From assembly GCA_021806095.1 (NCBI GenBank), contig JAJZYD010000007.1:1-34872 (forward strand): a stretch of 34,872 nt of DNA, read 5' to 3'. The position numbers and the translations under genes are program-made. This document shows, piece by piece, positions 1,491-34,134 of this stretch. Under the pieces are notes generated by a model. It worked only from the letters and a program-made list of their open reading frames with translations, made no database searches and was not told where the DNA came from. Each line of letters starts with the position of its first letter. The first letter of the stretch is position 1. This stretch comes from Microcaldota archaeon (lineage in GTDB: Archaea; Micrarchaeota; Micrarchaeia; Micrarchaeales; Micrarchaeaceae).

Positions 1491-3110
1491 TTATTCTTTT
1501 ATAAAAATTTCTAAATAATTAATTAGAGGGTTTATTATTAATTTCAGCATTTTTGAGATTTTACCCACTTTGTTAAAGAAATTCAAATTTGATCTTGTAA
1601 CACTTTTTGTCAATGCAAGTAATGGTGGATATATAATTATCGCTATAATAAGATTTGTTAAAATTGTAATCTTTGAATAGTTAAATAAGCTTGAAGCTGC
1701 TATTAATATTGCAAATACTATAATTGATGTGATAATCAATCTTATTAATTTATTCTGTTTATGAACAATATTCAATTCCTTTTTCAGTACATAAATATAC
1801 ATAATAATAAATATTAAAGGTGCTATAATAAAAAGAGAGTAAAGCGCTCCAACCACCCCATATAAAGGTACAAATAATATAAGCATTGCAAACTGTATTA
1901 GTGTATAAATAAGCTGGTATTTCATAAAGCTTTTTACACGATCATAGCTTAATAACAGATTACCAGCATATACTCCTATAATACTCATTAATATACCTAT
2001 TATCATTATTGTAGCATAGAAAGGTACTTCAGTATATGCTTTTGATATTAAAGTAAAAACGATTGGATTTATCGCAGAAATTATATAGACAGAAATAGGA
2101 AGTAGAATTAAAAATGTATAATAAATACTTCCATTATATGTTCTGTTCATATTTTTATAATTTTGGATTTTTTTATCAATTGCAAATTTTGCATATGCTG
2201 ATAACAAGATAAAAGAGAGCGATTGTACTAATATTTCTATGAATCTTGAAAGCCTATATGCTGCACTGTAGTTTCCAAGAAGTGCTGGCGCAATAAAAAA
2301 ACCCAATATTAAAATAGAAAAATTCTGAATACCAAGCAATGCAATATTTGATGTAAAAACAGGCATTGAAAATTTTGTTAGTTTTGAAATTTCCTGCTTT
2401 ACTGGTTTTACTATTTTTAGTTTTATCTTGAAAAAGAAGTAAAATAAGTATATTAATGAACCTGTTATTAAGCTTATTACAAATCCTATTAATGCACCAA
2501 AAATTCCATATCCCAAAAGTATCAAACTAACAACAGTTATCAATTGTACTGATGAATATGTAATATGTCCAATTACTGCTTCTTTAATTTTTCCAAGAGA
2601 TGTCAAAGCTGCTTTTGATAGATTAAAAAGAACAGTAAAGAATTGTATAATTGATGCAATTATAAGAAAAATAGCAATATTTTGGTTGTTGTATACGTAT
2701 CTTGCTATAGGCTCTGAGATTATGATTCCAACAATCATAAGAATAAATGATAGTAGAAGTGCCACAAAATAGCCATTGCTTAATAGTCTATTTATTTTTT
2801 TTGTATCTCCTTCTATTTGTGGTATAAACTTTCTAAATGCTGTACCTATTCCAAAATTACCGGCAGTTCCAATAAATGCAGCAAATGCAACTGCAATACT
2901 ATAAATTCCAAAATCTGTTGGTTGTAAGTATCGTGTTAATATTATCAATAAAATTAATGTTATGATGCTTGAAGTAATTTCACCCAATGAGTATAATATA
3001 CCTCTTTTGGCAGTAGTTGCATGCATGTCTATTAATTCATCATCTTTTATATTACCTTCTATATTTATACTTGAATTAACTCCTATATTATTTTTGTTTT
3101 TGTTCTGCAT
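1491..3110 (-). CDS. Polysaccharide/oligosaccharide flippase-like membrane protein (Wzx/MATE-like)
   Basis: 539 aa with many TM segments; N-terminal pattern RGILYSLGEITSSIITLILLIILTRYLQPTDFGIYSIAVAFAAFIGTAGNFGIGTAFRKFIP is typical of Wzx-type proteins. Confidence 0.85.
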   Translation of the reverse strand: MQNKNKNNIGVNSSINIEGNIKDDELIDMHATTAKRGILYSLGEITSSIITLILLIILTRYLQPTDFGIYSIAVAFAAFIGTAGNFGIGTAFRKFIPQIEGDTKKINRLLSNGYFVALLLSFILMIVGIIISEPIARYVYNNQNIAIFLIIASIIQFFTVLFNLSKAALTSLGKIKEAVIGHITYSSVQLITVVSLILLGYGIFGALIGFVISLITGSLIYLFYFFFKIKLKIVKPVKQEISKLTKFSMPVFTSNIALLGIQNFSILILGFFIAPALLGNYSAAYRLSRFIEILVQSLSFILLSAYAKFAIDKKIQNYKNMNRTYNGSIYYTFLILLPISVYIISAINPIVFTLISKAYTEVPFYATIMIIGILMSIIGVYAGNLLLSYDRVKSFMKYQLIYTLIQFAMLILFVPLYGVVGALYSLFIIAPLIFIIMYIYVLKKELNIVHKQNKLIRLIITSIIVFAILIAASSLFNYSKITILTNLIIAIIIYPPLLALTKSVTRSNLNFFNKVGKISKMLKLIINPLINYLEIFIKE

Positions 3111-3157
3111 TTTTGCTTCACTGTCATTTTTATTTTAGACTATTTATAGTTATTTTA

Positions 3158-4276
3158 TTATGCCCTTATTATATAATCATCTAATTTATCTTTTATTTCC
3201 TTTTTCTTTTTATTATGTTCATCTAAGAATCTATTGATTTTTTCAGCAAGATCCTTTTTATGCTCTCCTGCTAATATTGTTCCTGTTCTCTCAGCTTCAA
3301 AAATCGCTTCTAGCTTCTTATCATCCGGCTCAAACAGGTATTTATAATACTGGCATATCATGCATTTTTCAGGATCTCCCCCATATTTCTTTTGCAGTTC
3401 GGCCGTTGCCTGCTGCCCTGTTACTGCTTTATTAACTTTTTTTATTACCTCTTCATGTGTATCAGTTAAATATATGGCATTATTTGGATTGCTGGATGAC
3501 ATCTTTGTTGAGCCATCTAAGCCTGGCAGGAACTTTCCATGCAAAATTGCAGGCTTATAATAGCCTAGCTTGCCTATAACATCTCGTGCAACCCTAAAAT
3601 GAACATCTTGATCTACTGCTAACGGAATTAAACAGGGAACATTGTGTCCAACTTCAATAGACTTTAAAAATGCCGGAACTGCCTGCATACTTGTATAAAA
3701 AATAAGACCAATATTTGTTTCATTTTTCATTCCAAATGCATCTTTTACAGTTGAAAATGTTATATGCTTTGCAACCCTGCAAGCTTGCTTATATAGAACA
3801 GAGGCATATTCTGTATCAAGAAATATTTTGGTTTTTTTTGGATTGAATCCCAAAGCAAGTATATCTAATATATTGTCATAGCATAATTCTCTTTGTTTAT
3901 TGATATCTCTAATATTTTCTTTAGACAGAAATTTTTCTTCATCTGGTATTTGTATATAGATTTCAACATCAAATTTTTCTTGCAGCCATTTTGTTAACAA
4001 GAATGGTATTAAATGCCCTAATGTCATATTTCCAGATGGTGCTCTTCCTGTATATAAATAAAAAGGGTTTCCTTTTTCATACTCGTCTAAAATCCAATTT
4101 AATTCTCTATGACCAAAGAATATGTTGCGTCTGAACATATAATGTAATTCATGTGCCTGAATTTTTATTCTTTCTAGCAAATCTTCATTGATCTGTTTTA
4201 TACCAAACTGCCTTTCTAAAATTGTATAATCTATTTTACCATTAACTTCCCAAGGGGTCATTTTAAATTCAGCCAT
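3158..4276 (-). CDS. trpS: Tryptophanyl-tRNA synthetase (archaeal/eukaryotic type)
   Basis: MTPWEV N-terminus, FYLYTGRAPSGNMTLGHLIPFLLTKWLQ and KMSSSNPNNAIYLTD motifs. Confidence 0.95.
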   Translation of the reverse strand: MAEFKMTPWEVNGKIDYTILERQFGIKQINEDLLERIKIQAHELHYMFRRNIFFGHRELNWILDEYEKGNPFYLYTGRAPSGNMTLGHLIPFLLTKWLQEKFDVEIYIQIPDEEKFLSKENIRDINKQRELCYDNILDILALGFNPKKTKIFLDTEYASVLYKQACRVAKHITFSTVKDAFGMKNETNIGLIFYTSMQAVPAFLKSIEVGHNVPCLIPLAVDQDVHFRVARDVIGKLGYYKPAILHGKFLPGLDGSTKMSSSNPNNAIYLTDTHEEVIKKVNKAVTGQQATAELQKKYGGDPEKCMICQYYKYLFEPDDKKLEAIFEAERTGTILAGEHKKDLAEKINRFLDEHNKKKKEIKDKLDDYIIRA

Positions 4277-4533
4277 TAACTCACTTTAAATTAGAATATA
4301 TTTAATAATATATTTATTAAATAAACCACCTTTAGATATAATACAATTTTATTATATAGGTTTTTATAATTTGTGCTGTATATTTTATTGTATAGAATAT
4401 GGTAACCTTTATAAATCTTGCTTAATAAACTTTAATAAAATAAAGTTTGATTAAAAAAACTAATTAAATATTTATTTATAATGTGTATTATATTAGAGTA
4501 TTATAAGAGCAGCTAATTTTGAGGTGTTTATTA

Positions 4534-4686
4534 ATGGGAAAATTTCCAATAGCAGATGCAGAAATTGCAAAAATATGGATTTGTAAAAGATGTAAAGCAA
4601 GAAATAAAGCTGGAGCAACTAAATGCAGAAAATGTGGTTATCACTTTTTGAGACCAAAGAACAAAGAAACCAAATCTAAAAAATAA
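4534..4686 (+). CDS. rpl40e: 50S ribosomal protein L40e (50 aa)
   Basis: Manual translation [50 protein letters not shown]; two CxxC pairs; Shine-Dalgarno GAGGTG at 4521-4526. Too short for the ORF track. Confidence 0.92.
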
Positions 4687-5633: not shown

Positions 5634-5939
5634 TTAACTTATGCCTATTTCTATTTGAACAGTATCAGGTACTGGGATTCTCATTACTTGCCTTAAAGCT
5701 TGCTCATTTCCATCAATTATAAGAAAGCGTTTATGAAATCTCATTTGCCATTTCTCAAAAGTGTGACTGCCATCTGCTGCTGGCGTCTTCCTTGTTGTTT
5801 GTGTTATTCTTCTTGTAGGCATTGGTATAGGCCCTTTGCATTTGACATTCAAAGATGATGCTATAGATTTTATTTGACTTGCTATAGCATCAGCATCTTT
5901 TGCATTTGTGCTTATAAGTTTTATTCTAGCTAATGTCAT
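5634..5939 (-). CDS. rps10: 30S ribosomal protein S10
   Basis: MTLARIKLISTNAKDADAIASQIK..GPIPMPTRRITQTTRKTPAADGSHTFEKWQMRFHKRFLIIDG is diagnostic. Confidence 0.97.
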   Translation of the reverse strand: MTLARIKLISTNAKDADAIASQIKSIASSLNVKCKGPIPMPTRRITQTTRKTPAADGSHTFEKWQMRFHKRFLIIDGNEQALRQVMRIPVPDTVQIEIGIS

Positions 5940-5954
5940 TTAATCCCTTTATTA

Positions 5955-7235
5955 TCACTGCCTTGGTGTAACATCTAAGACAACACCTGCACCTATTGTT
6001 TCTCCCATATCTCTTATTGCAAATCTTCCAAGCTGTGGAAATTCACTATACTTTTCTATTACAACTGCTTTTGTTGGCTTCAACTTTACAATTGCTATGT
6101 CTCCAGTCTTTAATGTTTGTGGATTCTTTTCTGCTACTTGCCCTGTTTTTGGATCCCTCTTTTCAAGGAAGTCTACAAATGTACAAGCAACTTGTGCTGT
6201 ATGAATATGAAATACTGGTGTATACCCTCTTGCTATTACATTTGGATGCTTTAATATAACAACCTGTGCTGTGAATTCAGTTGCAACTGTTGGTGGATTA
6301 TTTGATAAACCAATAACATCGCCTCTTTTAACATCTTTCTTTTCTAATGCTTTTGCAGCAAATCCTATATTATCGCCAGGTTCTGCCTTTTGCAATGCTT
6401 GGTGATGCATTTCAATACTCTTAACTTCTGTTTTTACACCACTTGGCATAATAATTATTTGATCTCCAGGTTTCAAAACTCCAGTTTCAATTCTTCCCAC
6501 TGGTATTGTTCCAAATCCTTGCACAGTATCTACATCTTGAATAGGCATCCTCAATGGTTTATCTGTTGGCTTTGGTGGAACTTTTAATGAATCTAATGCT
6601 TCTAATAATGTTGGACCAGTATACCATGACATTTTATCCGACTTCTTTGCTACATTATCTCCAGTAAATGCTGAATATGGTATATATCCAATAATTGTTT
6701 CTGGTTTATAATTAAGACTCTTAAGAAGATCTCCAATAGTTTTCTTTGTTTCTTCGTATTTTGCTTGCGAAAATTCTACAGCATCCATTTTATTTACGCC
6801 AATTATTACCTGTTTTATTCCAAGAACATTTGCAAGTATTGCATGTTCCCTTGTTTGAGCTTGAACACCCTCTTTTGCACTGCATACTAATACTGCAGCA
6901 TCTGACTGGCTTGCACCGGTAATCATATTCTTTACAAAGTCCCTATGGCCTGGAGCATCAATTATTGTAAAATAATATTTTGCTGTTTGAAATTCTTTGT
7001 GTGCTATATCAATAGTAATACCCCTTTCTCTTTCTTCTTTCAGACTATCCATAACAAAAGCAAATTCGAATGTTGGCTTGTTGAATGTTTGAGCCATTTC
7101 CTTCATTCTTGCCATATCTCTATCTGAAATTGCTCCTGTTTCAAAAAGGAGTCTTCCAACTGTTGTTGACTTTCCGTGGTCAACGTGCCCTATAAATATT
7201 AAGTTCATATGCATTTTTTCTCCCATAGTATTCAC
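5955..7235 (-). CDS. tuf: Translation elongation factor 1-alpha
   Basis: [31 protein letters not shown] motifs; followed by S10 in the canonical order. Confidence 0.98.
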
Positions 7236-7449
7236 CTTAAATATAATATTAACAATGAAATATAACTTTTATAAATAGCATTAGAATATGCTACTACTTT
7301 ATTTATACTTGTTATTTTTATTAGAGTAATGTTATTAAAGCTTTTGCTTTTACTCTTATTATAATATTTATATATAATTTAGGGGATAAATATAAATATT
7401 TTATCTTTCAGATTTTTTCTTTCATATTATTTTTTATATATATATATAT

Positions 7450-8187
7450 TTATAATTTTTTATATAAACAATAATTTTTTAAAGGACAACCATCACATAT
7501 CGGATTATTTTTTTTACAATAATTTTTTCCTAATGCAACAAATTGTGCATGTATATCTTTATAAAGATTTAAATTAGTATCTAACTCTTTTTCAAAATAT
7601 TGCCTCAGTAAATCATAATCAATGTTCTCATCTATATTATAAACTCTATACATAATACGTTTTGTATATGCATCAATTACAAAAATAGGTTTTTCAGCAG
7701 CATATAAAATAATTGAGTCTGCTGTTTCTCTCCCGATTCCATTAAAATTTAAAAGTATTTCTCTTAAAGTTTGTATATCTCTATTAAATAAATTATCCAA
7801 ACTTTTATAATTTTTTAAAATTGACCTACAGATATTTTTTATTTTCTTTGCTTTTTGTCTATAATAACCACTCGATTTTATAATATTTTCAAGTTTATTT
7901 AATTTTATTGATGATAATGCTTCTATTTTAAGAAGATTGTTGTCTTTGAGTAATTTAATAGATTTTTCAACATTCTTCCATGAGGTTTGTTGTGTTAATA
8001 TTGCACTTACAAAAATTTCAAATTTTGATTCTCCGGGCCACCAATATTGGAAGCCAAACTTCTTGAGCAATACAGTGTAAAACTCTTTAAGTTCAAGATT
8101 ATTTTTTGATTTTTTAATTTTGATTAAATCTTTAGTTCGCCACTTTCTAATTTTTTTATTACTAATTTTGGATCCTCGTTTTCGCAT
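7450..8187 (-). CDS. HhH-GPD DNA glycosylase of the endonuclease III superfamily (MagIII-like) with C-terminal Fe-S loop
   Basis: ILTQQTSW, HhH FNGIGRETADSII, catalytic VIDAYTKRI, CxxxxxxCxxCxxxxxC (CKKNNPICDGCPLKNYC). Annotated start overlaps the L11 gene, so the start is uncertain. Confidence 0.88.
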   Translation of the reverse strand: MRKRGSKISNKKIRKWRTKDLIKIKKSKNNLELKEFYTVLLKKFGFQYWWPGESKFEIFVSAILTQQTSWKNVEKSIKLLKDNNLLKIEALSSIKLNKLENIIKSSGYYRQKAKKIKNICRSILKNYKSLDNLFNRDIQTLREILLNFNGIGRETADSIILYAAEKPIFVIDAYTKRIMYRVYNIDENIDYDLLRQYFEKELDTNLNLYKDIHAQFVALGKNYCKKNNPICDGCPLKNYCLYKKL

Positions 8188-8591
8188 TTTACTCCCATAC
8201 TTTTACAGGTACCAAGCACTTGCTTAACTCTTGCAATCTCATTTTTTCCATAAAGCGATGCCTCTTTCGACTTAGCTATTTTTTTAATTTGTTCTAAAGT
8301 CAAGTTGCCTACTATTTCATCTTTAGTCTTTGCTCCAGATTGAATCCCAAGCTCCTTTAAAATAAGTGCACTTGTTGGTGGCATTCCAACTTCTATTCTA
8401 AATGCCTTTGTTACAGGATCAACAATAACTTTAACAGGTATTTTTATACCTTCAAATTGTTTAGTTTTATTGTTTATCTCGCTTATTATATTATTAATAT
8501 TGACACCTAAAGGTCCTAATGCGGGACCTAATGGCGGACCACCAGATGCTTTACCCCCTTCTACTAAACCAGATATTGTTACTTCTGACAT
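8124..8591 (-). CDS. rpl11: 50S ribosomal protein L11
   Basis: GGKASGGPPLGPALGPLGVNI..PVKVIVDP..FRIEVGMPPTSALILKELG. Confidence 0.97.
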   Translation of the reverse strand: MSEVTISGLVEGGKASGGPPLGPALGPLGVNINNIISEINNKTKQFEGIKIPVKVIVDPVTKAFRIEVGMPPTSALILKELGIQSGAKTKDEIVGNLTLEQIKKIAKSKEASLYGKNEIARVKQVLGTCKSMGVKCENEDPKLVIKKLESGELKI

Positions 8592-8645
8592 TTTTACACC
8601 TAATATTTTATTATACTTTTAATATGAAAATATAAAATTAATTTA

Positions 8646-9092
8646 TTAAGATTTTTCTACTTTTGATATAATTTTTGTTGTATTAATTTTTGCTGTTACA
8701 GGTATTGGTACAACAACATCCATAAGTTCAACAGTTATATCATTTTTAGAATCATCCACTTTTAATACCTTTGCTTTATATCCTCTAAAAGGCCCTGATG
8801 TAAATTCTACAATGTCTCCAACACCCACCTCTTGATTATAACTTTTAGATACTATCATTTTACTTAATTCTTCAGTGCTAAGTGGCTTGTTTAATACCCC
8901 TTTAATATTATTTGTTTTTGTTACAAACTGCCTGCATGCTACTTCATCTTCAGCTTCAACAATTATGTAACCTTTTAACCCGTCTACTACTAATATAGAG
9001 TATATTGGTAAATCTGACTTTGCCGCTTTATTCTGGAGTATATTTGAAATTATACTTTCTTGACCAATTGTTACTTTGACTACAAAAAACAC
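8646..9092 (-). CDS. spt5: Transcription elongation factor Spt5/NusG
   Basis: NGN domain plus KOW (VGVGDIVEFTSGPFRGYKAKVLKVD); immediately upstream of L11; GTG start. Confidence 0.93.
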   Translation of the reverse strand: MFFVVKVTIGQESIISNILQNKAAKSDLPIYSILVVDGLKGYIIVEAEDEVACRQFVTKTNNIKGVLNKPLSTEELSKMIVSKSYNQEVGVGDIVEFTSGPFRGYKAKVLKVDDSKNDITVELMDVVVPIPVTAKINTTKIISKVEKS

Positions 9093-30460: not shown

Positions 30461-30577
30461 GGCGGGGTAACTCAGCCTGGTAGAGTGCTAGACTCATATG
30501 CAAAGCATTATGAGTGAAGAGCAGAAATGCGATGACGAGAAATCTAGAAGTCGCGAGTTCAAATCTCGCCCCCGCCA
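30461..30577 (+). tRNA. tRNA-Met-like (CAU) with an intron of about 43 nt in the anticodon loop
   Basis: GGCGGGG/CCCCGCC acceptor, ACTC/GAGT D stem, CTAGA/TCTAG anticodon stem, GCGAG-TTCAAAT-CTCGC T arm, discriminator A. CAU could also be tRNA-Ile2. Confidence 0.9.
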
Positions 30578-30633: not shown

Positions 30634-32595
30634 ATGAATATAAGTAATGATATTATGCTATTTCATAAGGAAATTATAGCTACATTTGGAGGCAAAGGTG
30701 CGGGACTTCTTAGATTAAAAGAGGCAGGATTCAATGTTCCTGATTTCTTTATTCTGCCTACTAATATTTTTGAGCATTTTCTTTCCGATAACGGATATAC
30801 AATTTCCCAGCTCGCTTCTAACAGCAATAATAGAGAACTCATAATGCAAATGCACTTTAGCGAACAACTCAGCAGAAAAATAATTGCTGAATATAAAAGC
30901 AAGTTTGGAAATCAAAAAGTTGCAGTACGTAGCTCGGCCACAATAGAAGATGCTGAGAAAGATAGCAAAGCAGGAAAATTTGAAACATTACTGTCTGTGG
31001 ACAGAAACGGAATTCTAGATGCTGTAAAGAAAGTCTATGCTTCGTTGTTCTCGGATTTAATTGTAGATAATGAAAGACCACTTATGGCAGTAGTCGTGCA
31101 GAAACAGTTATTGCCGCAGAAGGCGGGAGTCGCATTTGTGGATGACAATTCCGTTCTAATAAACGCAATCCTTGGACAAGGTAGCATCCTTGTTTCCGGA
31201 AGAGAAAGTGGAGACACCTATGTTGTTGACAAAGAAGGAATACATATGCAGGTAAAATTGCAGGAAAAAGCAAGTAATAATGGGATTGATATATTAAATG
31301 TACCTCTAACTGTTAAGACAAAACAAAAACTTTTAGCATATGAGATAAGTGAGATAGCAGAGATGTCAAGAAGAATAATGATTGCGTTCAAAAGCCCGCA
31401 GGATATAGAATGGTGCATAGATTCAGGAAAATTGTTTGCATTGCAATCGCGCCCTATAACAAGAGCTATAGATGCACCAGTATTAGAAAACATCGGCGGT
31501 CTCATTCCTGTAAGCATAGGCAAAGCTGAAGGAATCCCATGGTTTGCGCTCAAAAAAATTCCAGATAGGGATGTAGTGCTTATAGCTACATTTATAGAAC
31601 AGCGTGATTTAGAAAAATTGGTGACAAGCGGACATGTGAAAGGAATTATAACAGAGCTTGGAGGAGTTCTCTCACATGAAGGGGTCATTGCTAGGGAAAA
31701 AGGCATACCTTATCTTGCAGGAGTTAGAAATCCGCAAAAGCTGTTCCAAAATGTAAAATATGTAGTATTAGATACTGAAAAGATGGAAGCTCTTGCTGAT
31801 GGCAAAAACATGATAATATCAGAAGCCGAAACTTATAACTGGCTGAATAGAGATATTGAAGATTTAAGAACAATACAGATTGATGGTAAAAAACATGGTT
31901 TGGTTGTAAGAACCACAGATAGCACGGTGATTGTGTATTCTTCGATAAAAGACAAAAAACAAGGCGCAGCAATTCTCGCGGCTCTCAATAGAACAGAATC
32001 TGTACTTGTATGCGACGAATCAGACAAGACACATGATATAACAAATAAAGCCGTTGTCAATATCATGAATCATGATAGTAAAATAAAAGAACATGTACAG
32101 GCTATGGCTGATGCTATTAGGAGGTTTGATGTGCATGCATTTGATGTTGCCAATATGGCGGCTAAGAAAGTTACAGAGCAAGAATTTGAGAGAGCTAAAG
32201 CGGCATACATTGAATACAATATTACTAAGGATACTGGAAAGCTTGAGACTGCGCTAAAGTCGTTTGCTAGAGCAAATAGTTATTATAAGGGCACATGCAT
32301 AATGGCACAATATTTTGAGTACTCGTTTGGTATTTTTATAAGCGAACAGGAAGAAAGGACAATAACAGATCTTGAGCTCTATAGATTAAGAGGCAAATAT
32401 GAAGCAACTAACCAAAACATAAAGCACATGGAAGAAAGAATACAGAGGGCTATAGAAAATCTTGATAGGTCACTCCCTGCTTTCGGAAATGGCAAAGAAT
32501 CGCTAGAAGGACTCTATAATTTGCTAATGCAAGATGCACAAAAAAGATTGAAAGAAGAAAAGTTATTTGCTTTGCTTTTTGGAATTGAAACTTGA
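30634..32595 (+). CDS. PPDK/PEP-synthase-like ATP-grasp plus phosphohistidine-domain protein with novel C-terminal domain; lacks the PEP/pyruvate TIM barrel
   Basis: GGKGAGLLRLKEAGFNVPDFFILPT, VAVRSSATIEDAEKDSKAGKFETLL, QDIEWCIDSGKLFALQSRPITR, phospho-His domain ELGGVLSHEGVIAREKGIPYLAG, then about 250 aa with no PEP-binding barrel motif. Confidence 0.85.
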   Translation: MNISNDIMLFHKEIIATFGGKGAGLLRLKEAGFNVPDFFILPTNIFEHFLSDNGYTISQLASNSNNRELIMQMHFSEQLSRKIIAEYKSKFGNQKVAVRSSATIEDAEKDSKAGKFETLLSVDRNGILDAVKKVYASLFSDLIVDNERPLMAVVVQKQLLPQKAGVAFVDDNSVLINAILGQGSILVSGRESGDTYVVDKEGIHMQVKLQEKASNNGIDILNVPLTVKTKQKLLAYEISEIAEMSRRIMIAFKSPQDIEWCIDSGKLFALQSRPITRAIDAPVLENIGGLIPVSIGKAEGIPWFALKKIPDRDVVLIATFIEQRDLEKLVTSGHVKGIITELGGVLSHEGVIAREKGIPYLAGVRNPQKLFQNVKYVVLDTEKMEALADGKNMIISEAETYNWLNRDIEDLRTIQIDGKKHGLVVRTTDSTVIVYSSIKDKKQGAAILAALNRTESVLVCDESDKTHDITNKAVVNIMNHDSKIKEHVQAMADAIRRFDVHAFDVANMAAKKVTEQEFERAKAAYIEYNITKDTGKLETALKSFARANSYYKGTCIMAQYFEYSFGIFISEQEERTITDLELYRLRGKYEATNQNIKHMEERIQRAIENLDRSLPAFGNGKESLEGLYNLLMQDAQKRLKEEKLFALLFGIET

Positions 32596-32642: not shown

Positions 32643-32667
32643 ACTCAACTTTCCAATCTTAATTAAA
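32643..32667. repeat. 25-bp direct repeat, copy 1
   Basis: ACTCAACTTTCCAATCTTAATTAAA, exact match to 33570-33594. Confidence 0.93.
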
Positions 32668-33569: not shown

Positions 33570-33594
33570 ACTCAACTTTCCAATCTTAATTAAA
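33570..33594. repeat. 25-bp direct repeat, copy 2
   Basis: ACTCAACTTTCCAATCTTAATTAAA, exact match to 32643-32667. Confidence 0.93.
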
Positions 33595-33901: not shown

Positions 33902-34134
33902 GTAGTGGTGAGCCGTAGCCCTCTTTTTGTTTTAGGCAACATTAGACTGAGCGGCAAATGCCTTGCATACTCATTGAACATACACCGACCGTTTCATCTA
34001 AAAAGTTACGCTCGTCGTGTCATTGCTTTATGAAACTTTTTAGTATCGTTTCTGCTCCGGATAAGGCCTTAAGCCATATGTTCTCTGTATGAGAGGAGCT
34101 TCCTCCTTTCGGTTGGTTGCCCGCTCACCACTAC
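33902..34134 (-). ncRNA. rnpB: RNase P RNA (compact)
   Basis: 12-bp terminal helix P1 (GTAGTGGTGAGC/GCTCACCACTAC), P2 GGCAAC/GUUGCC, CR-I-like GGAGGAAGCUCC, CR-II-like GCAGAAACGA, CR-III-like GAUGAAACGGUCGG, CR-V-like AACAAAAAGAGGGCUACGG; P4 pairing AGCUC/GGGCU possible; GC-rich relative to flanks. Confidence 0.82.

Follow-up and report, generated by a model that had tools for sequence, protein, structure and literature searches.

A barrel-less phosphohistidine dikinase of Micrarchaeota with a new C-terminal domain and a possible role in ribosomal peptide modification

Results

The window analysed here, a 34,872-nt stretch of DNA which corresponds to one complete contig of a Micrarchaeota MAG (782-kb genome), contains a gene (30634–32595, + strand, 653 amino acids plus stop) predicted to encode a His-relay dikinase in which the PEP/pyruvate barrel is replaced by a C-terminal domain of a new kind. 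We propose that phosphorylation or activation takes place on a ribosomal peptide, or a compound derived from one, presented by this domain; we give this reading nearly an even chance of being correct, and in it both the phosphotransfer itself and the peptide as acceptor are putative.

The assignment of the protein to the PPDK/PEP-synthase/RPH dikinase superfamily follows from its two N-terminal domains. The ATP-grasp nucleotide-binding domain (PPDK_N, PF01326; residues 17–279, window 30682–31470, +) scores 157.6 bits against a curated cut-off of 27 (E 6.5e-46), and the swivelling phospho-His domain (PEP-utilizers, PF00391; residues 312–382, window 31567–31779, +) scores 45.9 bits against 23.1 (E 4.4e-12), with the phospho-acceptor His348 sitting within GGVLSHEG; the initial annotation was thus right in recognising an ATP-grasp module followed by a swivelling domain with its His kept. 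In family A, the group of closest relatives to which the protein belongs, the ATP-grasp residues Lys21, Arg99, Thr118, Glu259, Gln271 and Arg273 are invariant, and a Lys, an Arg and the His corresponding to His348 are invariant across all 35 barrel-less proteins. In the rifampin phosphotransferase RPH-Lm the ATP site comprises Lys22, Arg117, Thr136 and Glu297 and the phospho-carrier is His825 (PMC4844700); these align with Lys21, Arg99, Thr118, Glu259 and His348 of the window protein, all of them invariant in family A. Among PDB sequences, rifampin phosphotransferase and PEP synthase match best, the similarity being confined to the ATP-grasp and His domains. Comparison with three close relatives yields dN/dS values of 0.16–0.21, alike in both halves of the gene, which indicates purifying selection; the nearest relatives (L003, L004 and L016) are 80–83% identical to the window protein. 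The invariance of the catalytic residues, together with these dN/dS values, suggests that the relay core is very probably functional.

The PEP-utilizer C-terminal barrel (PF02896), which had been described as missing, is indeed absent from both the protein and the whole host genome. A separate barrel gene acting in trans was also considered, and none was found in the host genome or in any family-A genome. The NCBIfam equivalog cut-offs for PEP synthase and PPDK are missed by far, and eight other genomes of the order encode full-length PPDK with the barrel (888–926 aa). Judged from the barrel, tested and absent, the protein is not a PEP synthase or PPDK: it shares with these enzymes the order of ATP-grasp and phospho-His domains and the conserved catalytic residues, but has an unrelated beta/helical domain where the barrel would be.

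A related possibility is a PEP-synthase surrogate whose C-terminal domain would form a new pyruvate/PEP site, as the annotation of its homologues in Mia14, a co-cultured ARMAN archaeon, implies: there, MIA14_0437 and MIA14_0462 are annotated as PEP synthase/PPDK (PMC5498576). The core domains are common to PEP synthase, and the gene under study encodes the sole PPDK_N protein of its host. We nevertheless regard a surrogate as very improbable, since the barrel is missing from the protein, the host and every family-A genome, the barrel-bearing PPDK is found in the eight genomes mentioned above, and most relatives do without family A. The Mia14 genome (our G021) carries a clade-B and a clade-A gene 27 kb apart, which fits the 25-gene spacing from MIA14_0437 to MIA14_0462, and the two annotated genes are therefore most likely barrel-less dikinases of clades B and A, the locus-tag match being inferred. 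This leaves the pyruvate-to-PEP step inferred for Mia14 without support.

In respect to rifampin phosphotransferase, the window protein resembles it in being a barrel-less His-relay dikinase, and RPH is its best PDB match in both sequence and fold, a match driven by the ATP-grasp domain. RPH has, however, ~865 aa in the order ATP-grasp – RIF domain – His, whereas the order found here is ATP-grasp – His – new domain. The curated RPH model gives 137.6 bits against a cut-off of 999, the RIF domain is unmatched and the His lies at position 348 of 653, and from these features the protein is judged not to be a rifampin phosphotransferase. The two-component phenolic dikinases HpeHI, CreHI and PpsAB are likewise barrel-less, their domains being divided between chains like those of the split relatives described below, and use an acceptor domain other than the barrel (PMC12167813). 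They differ in having the acceptor and His domains on one chain and in acting on aromatic substrates; the new domain is unmatched to them, and in HpeHI the His is C-terminal, unlike the order seen here.

The C-terminal domain (residues 395–653, window 31816–32592, +) has no credible match in Pfam, NCBIfam or PDB sequences, and Foldseek against PDB and viral structures yields nothing at E≤0.001. The sole PDB sequence match below 1e-3, the designed TIM barrel 6z2i, was discarded, as no stretch passes on its own, and a hidden RIF-type or PEP-barrel fold was rejected on the same Foldseek search of PDB and viral structures. The check that the initial annotation had set for itself, namely a comparison with the PEP barrel, RPH or another dikinase arrangement, was thus carried out and returned no match. 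A confident AlphaFold2 model (pLDDT 84.5, pTM 0.81) of the domain has a few N-terminal strands and, after them, an all-helical bundle, in agreement with the earlier description of a mostly helical segment that could not be assigned.

The same annotation considered the domain an orphan, and this does not hold, as relatives carry it in full length. By hhalign profile comparison, clades A, B and CD have homologous, colinear C-terminal domains: the A–CD comparison scores 44.9 against at most 18.3 in 30 column-shuffled controls, A–B scores 26.0 against 20.0 for the best shuffled control, and B–CD scores 30.5. No set of invariant polar residues is seen across the clades, and the full-length model is based on only 12 sequences. 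Middle proteins of split operons were also considered as homologues of the domain and rejected, the similarity not being significant. On these comparisons, the C-terminal domain is a family domain that was undescribed before, and we infer that it is the acceptor site.

Some 28 proteins make up the domain family; they are barrel-less dikinases, fall into three clades (A, B and CD) and almost all come from Micrarchaeota. Family A is present in about a dozen Micrarchaeota genomes, including one contig-end fragment and one remnant, and a convincing C-terminal match was obtained in 11 of the 301 genomes searched, plus the fragment L105. In a tree of the core domains, each of the three clades is monophyletic (support 99–100) and A and CD are joined with 100% bootstrap; the grouping of all 35 barrel-less proteins has a support of only 48. 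A PPDK_N census of the order recovered further barrel-less dikinases of 530–730 aa, comprising clades B and CD as well as one short form (L147) and the split forms. A third barrel-less layout, in which the His is close to the C-terminal end, is seen in dikinase-like proteins of ~530–560 aa (L107, L108, L119, L120 and L121).

Most relatives lack family A, whose distribution is patchy with loss. In a genome of the same genus (G003) a C-terminal family-A remnant (L006:1501–1830) retains an open frame of 110 aa with a stop within the match, which we interpret as decay of the gene in a sister genome. A pattern scan of GTDB species returned seven loci, six titled Micrarchaeota and one titled Nanoarchaeota; the latter, on a 3-kb low-coverage contig, is probably misbinned. 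Among 371 genomes of the phylum of this contig two further matches were obtained, one convincing (L141/L143) and the other weak and with a stop. No viral relatives were found.

Analysis of the genomic context of homologues, which had been suggested from the outset, revealed recurrent radical-SAM (rSAM) operons, and Cys-rich peptide ORFs in two of the loci, L017 and L018. These two family-A operons have the same organisation: a small peptide ORF (1357–1536 in L017, 5406–5663 in L018), an rSAM gene (1549–2613 and 5669–6757) and the dikinase (2613–4604 and 6762–8801), with a 1-bp overlap at the rSAM–dikinase junction in L017 and a 4-bp gap in L018. The two rSAM proteins are 56% identical to each other and resemble RiPP maturases, the best match being TIGR04463 (1.9e-37 and 5.9e-38), under the equivalog cut-off. 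The ORFs directly 5' of them, of 59 or 85 aa, have in common a VDE[T/S]GKV motif and end in Cys/Gly-rich tails with CGxGC (NVGCGAGCGGGNTVCT; IPCGVGCPCPGGC); these are candidate precursor peptides, picked as small ORFs by motif and eye. Homologous rSAM genes elsewhere in the order, with no dikinase seen beside them, are accompanied by short ORFs that are rich in Cys and carry a [DK][KR][FYL]GR-like motif, and this supports the precursor-peptide reading. Cys-containing short ORFs with a GR-type leader motif adjoin rSAM genes at several Micrarchaeota loci with no dikinase beside (L131:2797–3024, L134:1241–1414, L135:807–1058 and L138:2443–2616) and are likely RiPP precursors.

Other barrel-less dikinases are independently found in comparable settings. 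A clade-B gene (L100) has an rSAM/SPASM gene 8 bp upstream, a frameshifted, broken rSAM gene overlaps the start of a clade-CD dikinase (L095), and the short form L147 overlaps an rSAM gene resembling AlbA, the subtilosin maturase. Two split operons (L145 and L146) have the order rSAM – His domain – helical protein fused to a second rSAM/SPASM – ATP-grasp, and a third (L149:4973–11545) encodes a His domain, a C39-like peptidase protein, a YcaO protein of the SagD type (5.9e-56), an ATP-grasp protein, an unknown protein and an rSAM. Abhydrolase_11-like genes also recur beside barrel-less dikinases (L106, L017:4746–5408 and L149:3842–4486).

Among the 267 non-dikinase ORFs of 32 loci, selected by PPDK_N or C-terminal matches and not via radical SAM, ten are rSAM ORFs (from the loci L017, L018, L144, L145, L146, L147, L148 and L149), and nine of the ten belong to the same-strand run of the dikinase itself. 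The hypergeometric P of 5e-8 for this enrichment is optimistic, as the rSAM profile was partly trained on operonic copies. As the rSAMs next to the three clades are only distantly related to each other, the association could reflect repeated recruitment. Taken as genome context, the link between barrel-less dikinases and RiPP-type enzymes is strong; as chemistry it is unproven.

A distinct neighbourhood was observed for the clade-CD dikinase of another archaeal lineage (L143:6402–8767), with an MNT-HEPN fusion gene 3 bp upstream and an AbiEii-like nucleotidyltransferase close by. Such a location, along with the helical nature of the domain and the patchy distribution with loss, would suit a regulatory or conflict phosphotransferase acting on protein or RNA, for example with MNT-HEPN modules, the helical domain then serving as a docking platform. 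We find this improbable, as the MNT-HEPN neighbour was seen once, while the recurrent neighbour in Micrarchaeota is radical SAM.

Most family-A loci, including the window, G057/G083, G133, Mia14 and G044, have no adjacent rSAM gene. The window contains neither an rSAM remnant nor a precursor-like ORF, and its genome has no close homologue of the L017/L018-type rSAM at the search depth used. In G058, a remnant of an rSAM C-terminus, 83% identical to L017, abuts the family-A start. This partner loss, the gene decay in G003 and the missing rSAM partner suggest that the present role of the window copy may differ: as an operon survivor, it may use another partner or substrate. The same observations would fit a decaying relic of a lost operon, functionless in the host today, yet the open reading frame is intact, the catalytic residues are complete and selection is purifying across both halves, and a relic seems a slim prospect.

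The position held by the radical-SAM gene in some relatives is occupied in the window by an intron-containing tRNA gene (30461–30577, +; Rfam tRNA, 58.7 bits) directly upstream of the dikinase, as had been reported; it is missed by default ARAGORN, and its intron is seen in ARAGORN intron mode. This intron, of roughly 40 nt, lies in the anticodon loop, the intron mode giving Ser(aga) and CTCATAA (CAT) being an alternative reading of the loop. The observation that the dikinase gene is less A/T-extreme than its neighbours was also reproduced: its GC is 37.1% versus 27.6% for the window and its GC3 29.6% versus 12.6–24.2% in 13 other window genes, with a codon distance at the upper end of the range, yet inside it. 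Downstream, a 25-nt perfect direct repeat (32643–32667 and 33570–33594) brackets a Nudix gene whose composition is atypical (GC3 40%), and a 45-nt imperfect inverted pair is also present; this is possibly a small mobile segment. An archaeal RNase P RNA is found at 33904–34132 (−; Rfam RF00373, 88 bits).

Discussion

The claim that the C-terminus recognises a different acceptor is probable, since the barrel is replaced and the catalytic residues are intact. We would refine it to peptide, RiPP-type chemistry, the context for this refinement coming from relatives only. The main competing explanation is a small-molecule dikinase, with the same His relay and a C-terminal domain that binds a metabolite, the rSAM link reflecting a cofactor or metabolite pathway or being incidental. 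Indeed, the characterised barrel-less relatives that we found in the literature act on small molecules (PMC4844700, PMC12167813) and family-A genes mostly stand alone; the recurrent rSAM/SPASM, YcaO and C39-like neighbours, the Cys-rich peptide ORFs, the lack of a fold match of the new domain to RPH and the unlike domain order argue against it, and we consider it unlikely, although less so than the other alternatives.

In the peptide reading, the ATP-grasp domain would bind ATP and transfer the beta-phosphate to His348, with release of AMP and Pi, and the phosphorylated swivelling domain would then swing to the C-terminal domain, which, in place of the PEP/pyruvate barrel, would present another acceptor. 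This acceptor would be a ribosomal peptide or derived product, handled jointly with the radical-SAM enzyme in a RiPP-type tailoring step, either peptide phosphorylation or phospho-activation. The outcome might be a stable phosphate or a side chain activated for elimination or ring closure, between which the sequence cannot choose.

More tentatively, the family may represent a class of RiPP-modifying enzymes in DPANN archaea that has gone unrecognised, in which a PPDK-type phospho-His dikinase would either phosphorylate or phospho-activate a Cys-rich ribosomal peptide via the new domain, together with radical-SAM/SPASM enzymes and, once, YcaO. The enzymes encoded in operons with the barrel-less dikinases are similar to the RiPP rSAM/SPASM maturases (TIGR04463, AlbA and PapB families) and SagD-type YcaO, for which, in contrast, we found no PPDK-type dikinase partner reported in the literature; our literature search found no paper joining radical SAM, RiPP and PPDK.

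The substrates of the His-relay dikinases known so far are pyruvate, glucans, phenols and rifamycins; the protein described here extends this group of enzymes by a new acceptor domain and, probably, by a further type of substrate. The results also caution against annotating barrel-less dikinases as PEP synthase, and make the Mia14 annotation doubtful. If the substrate is a peptide, the family would provide a new route to activate ribosomal peptides and would reveal peptide tailoring in genome-reduced archaea.
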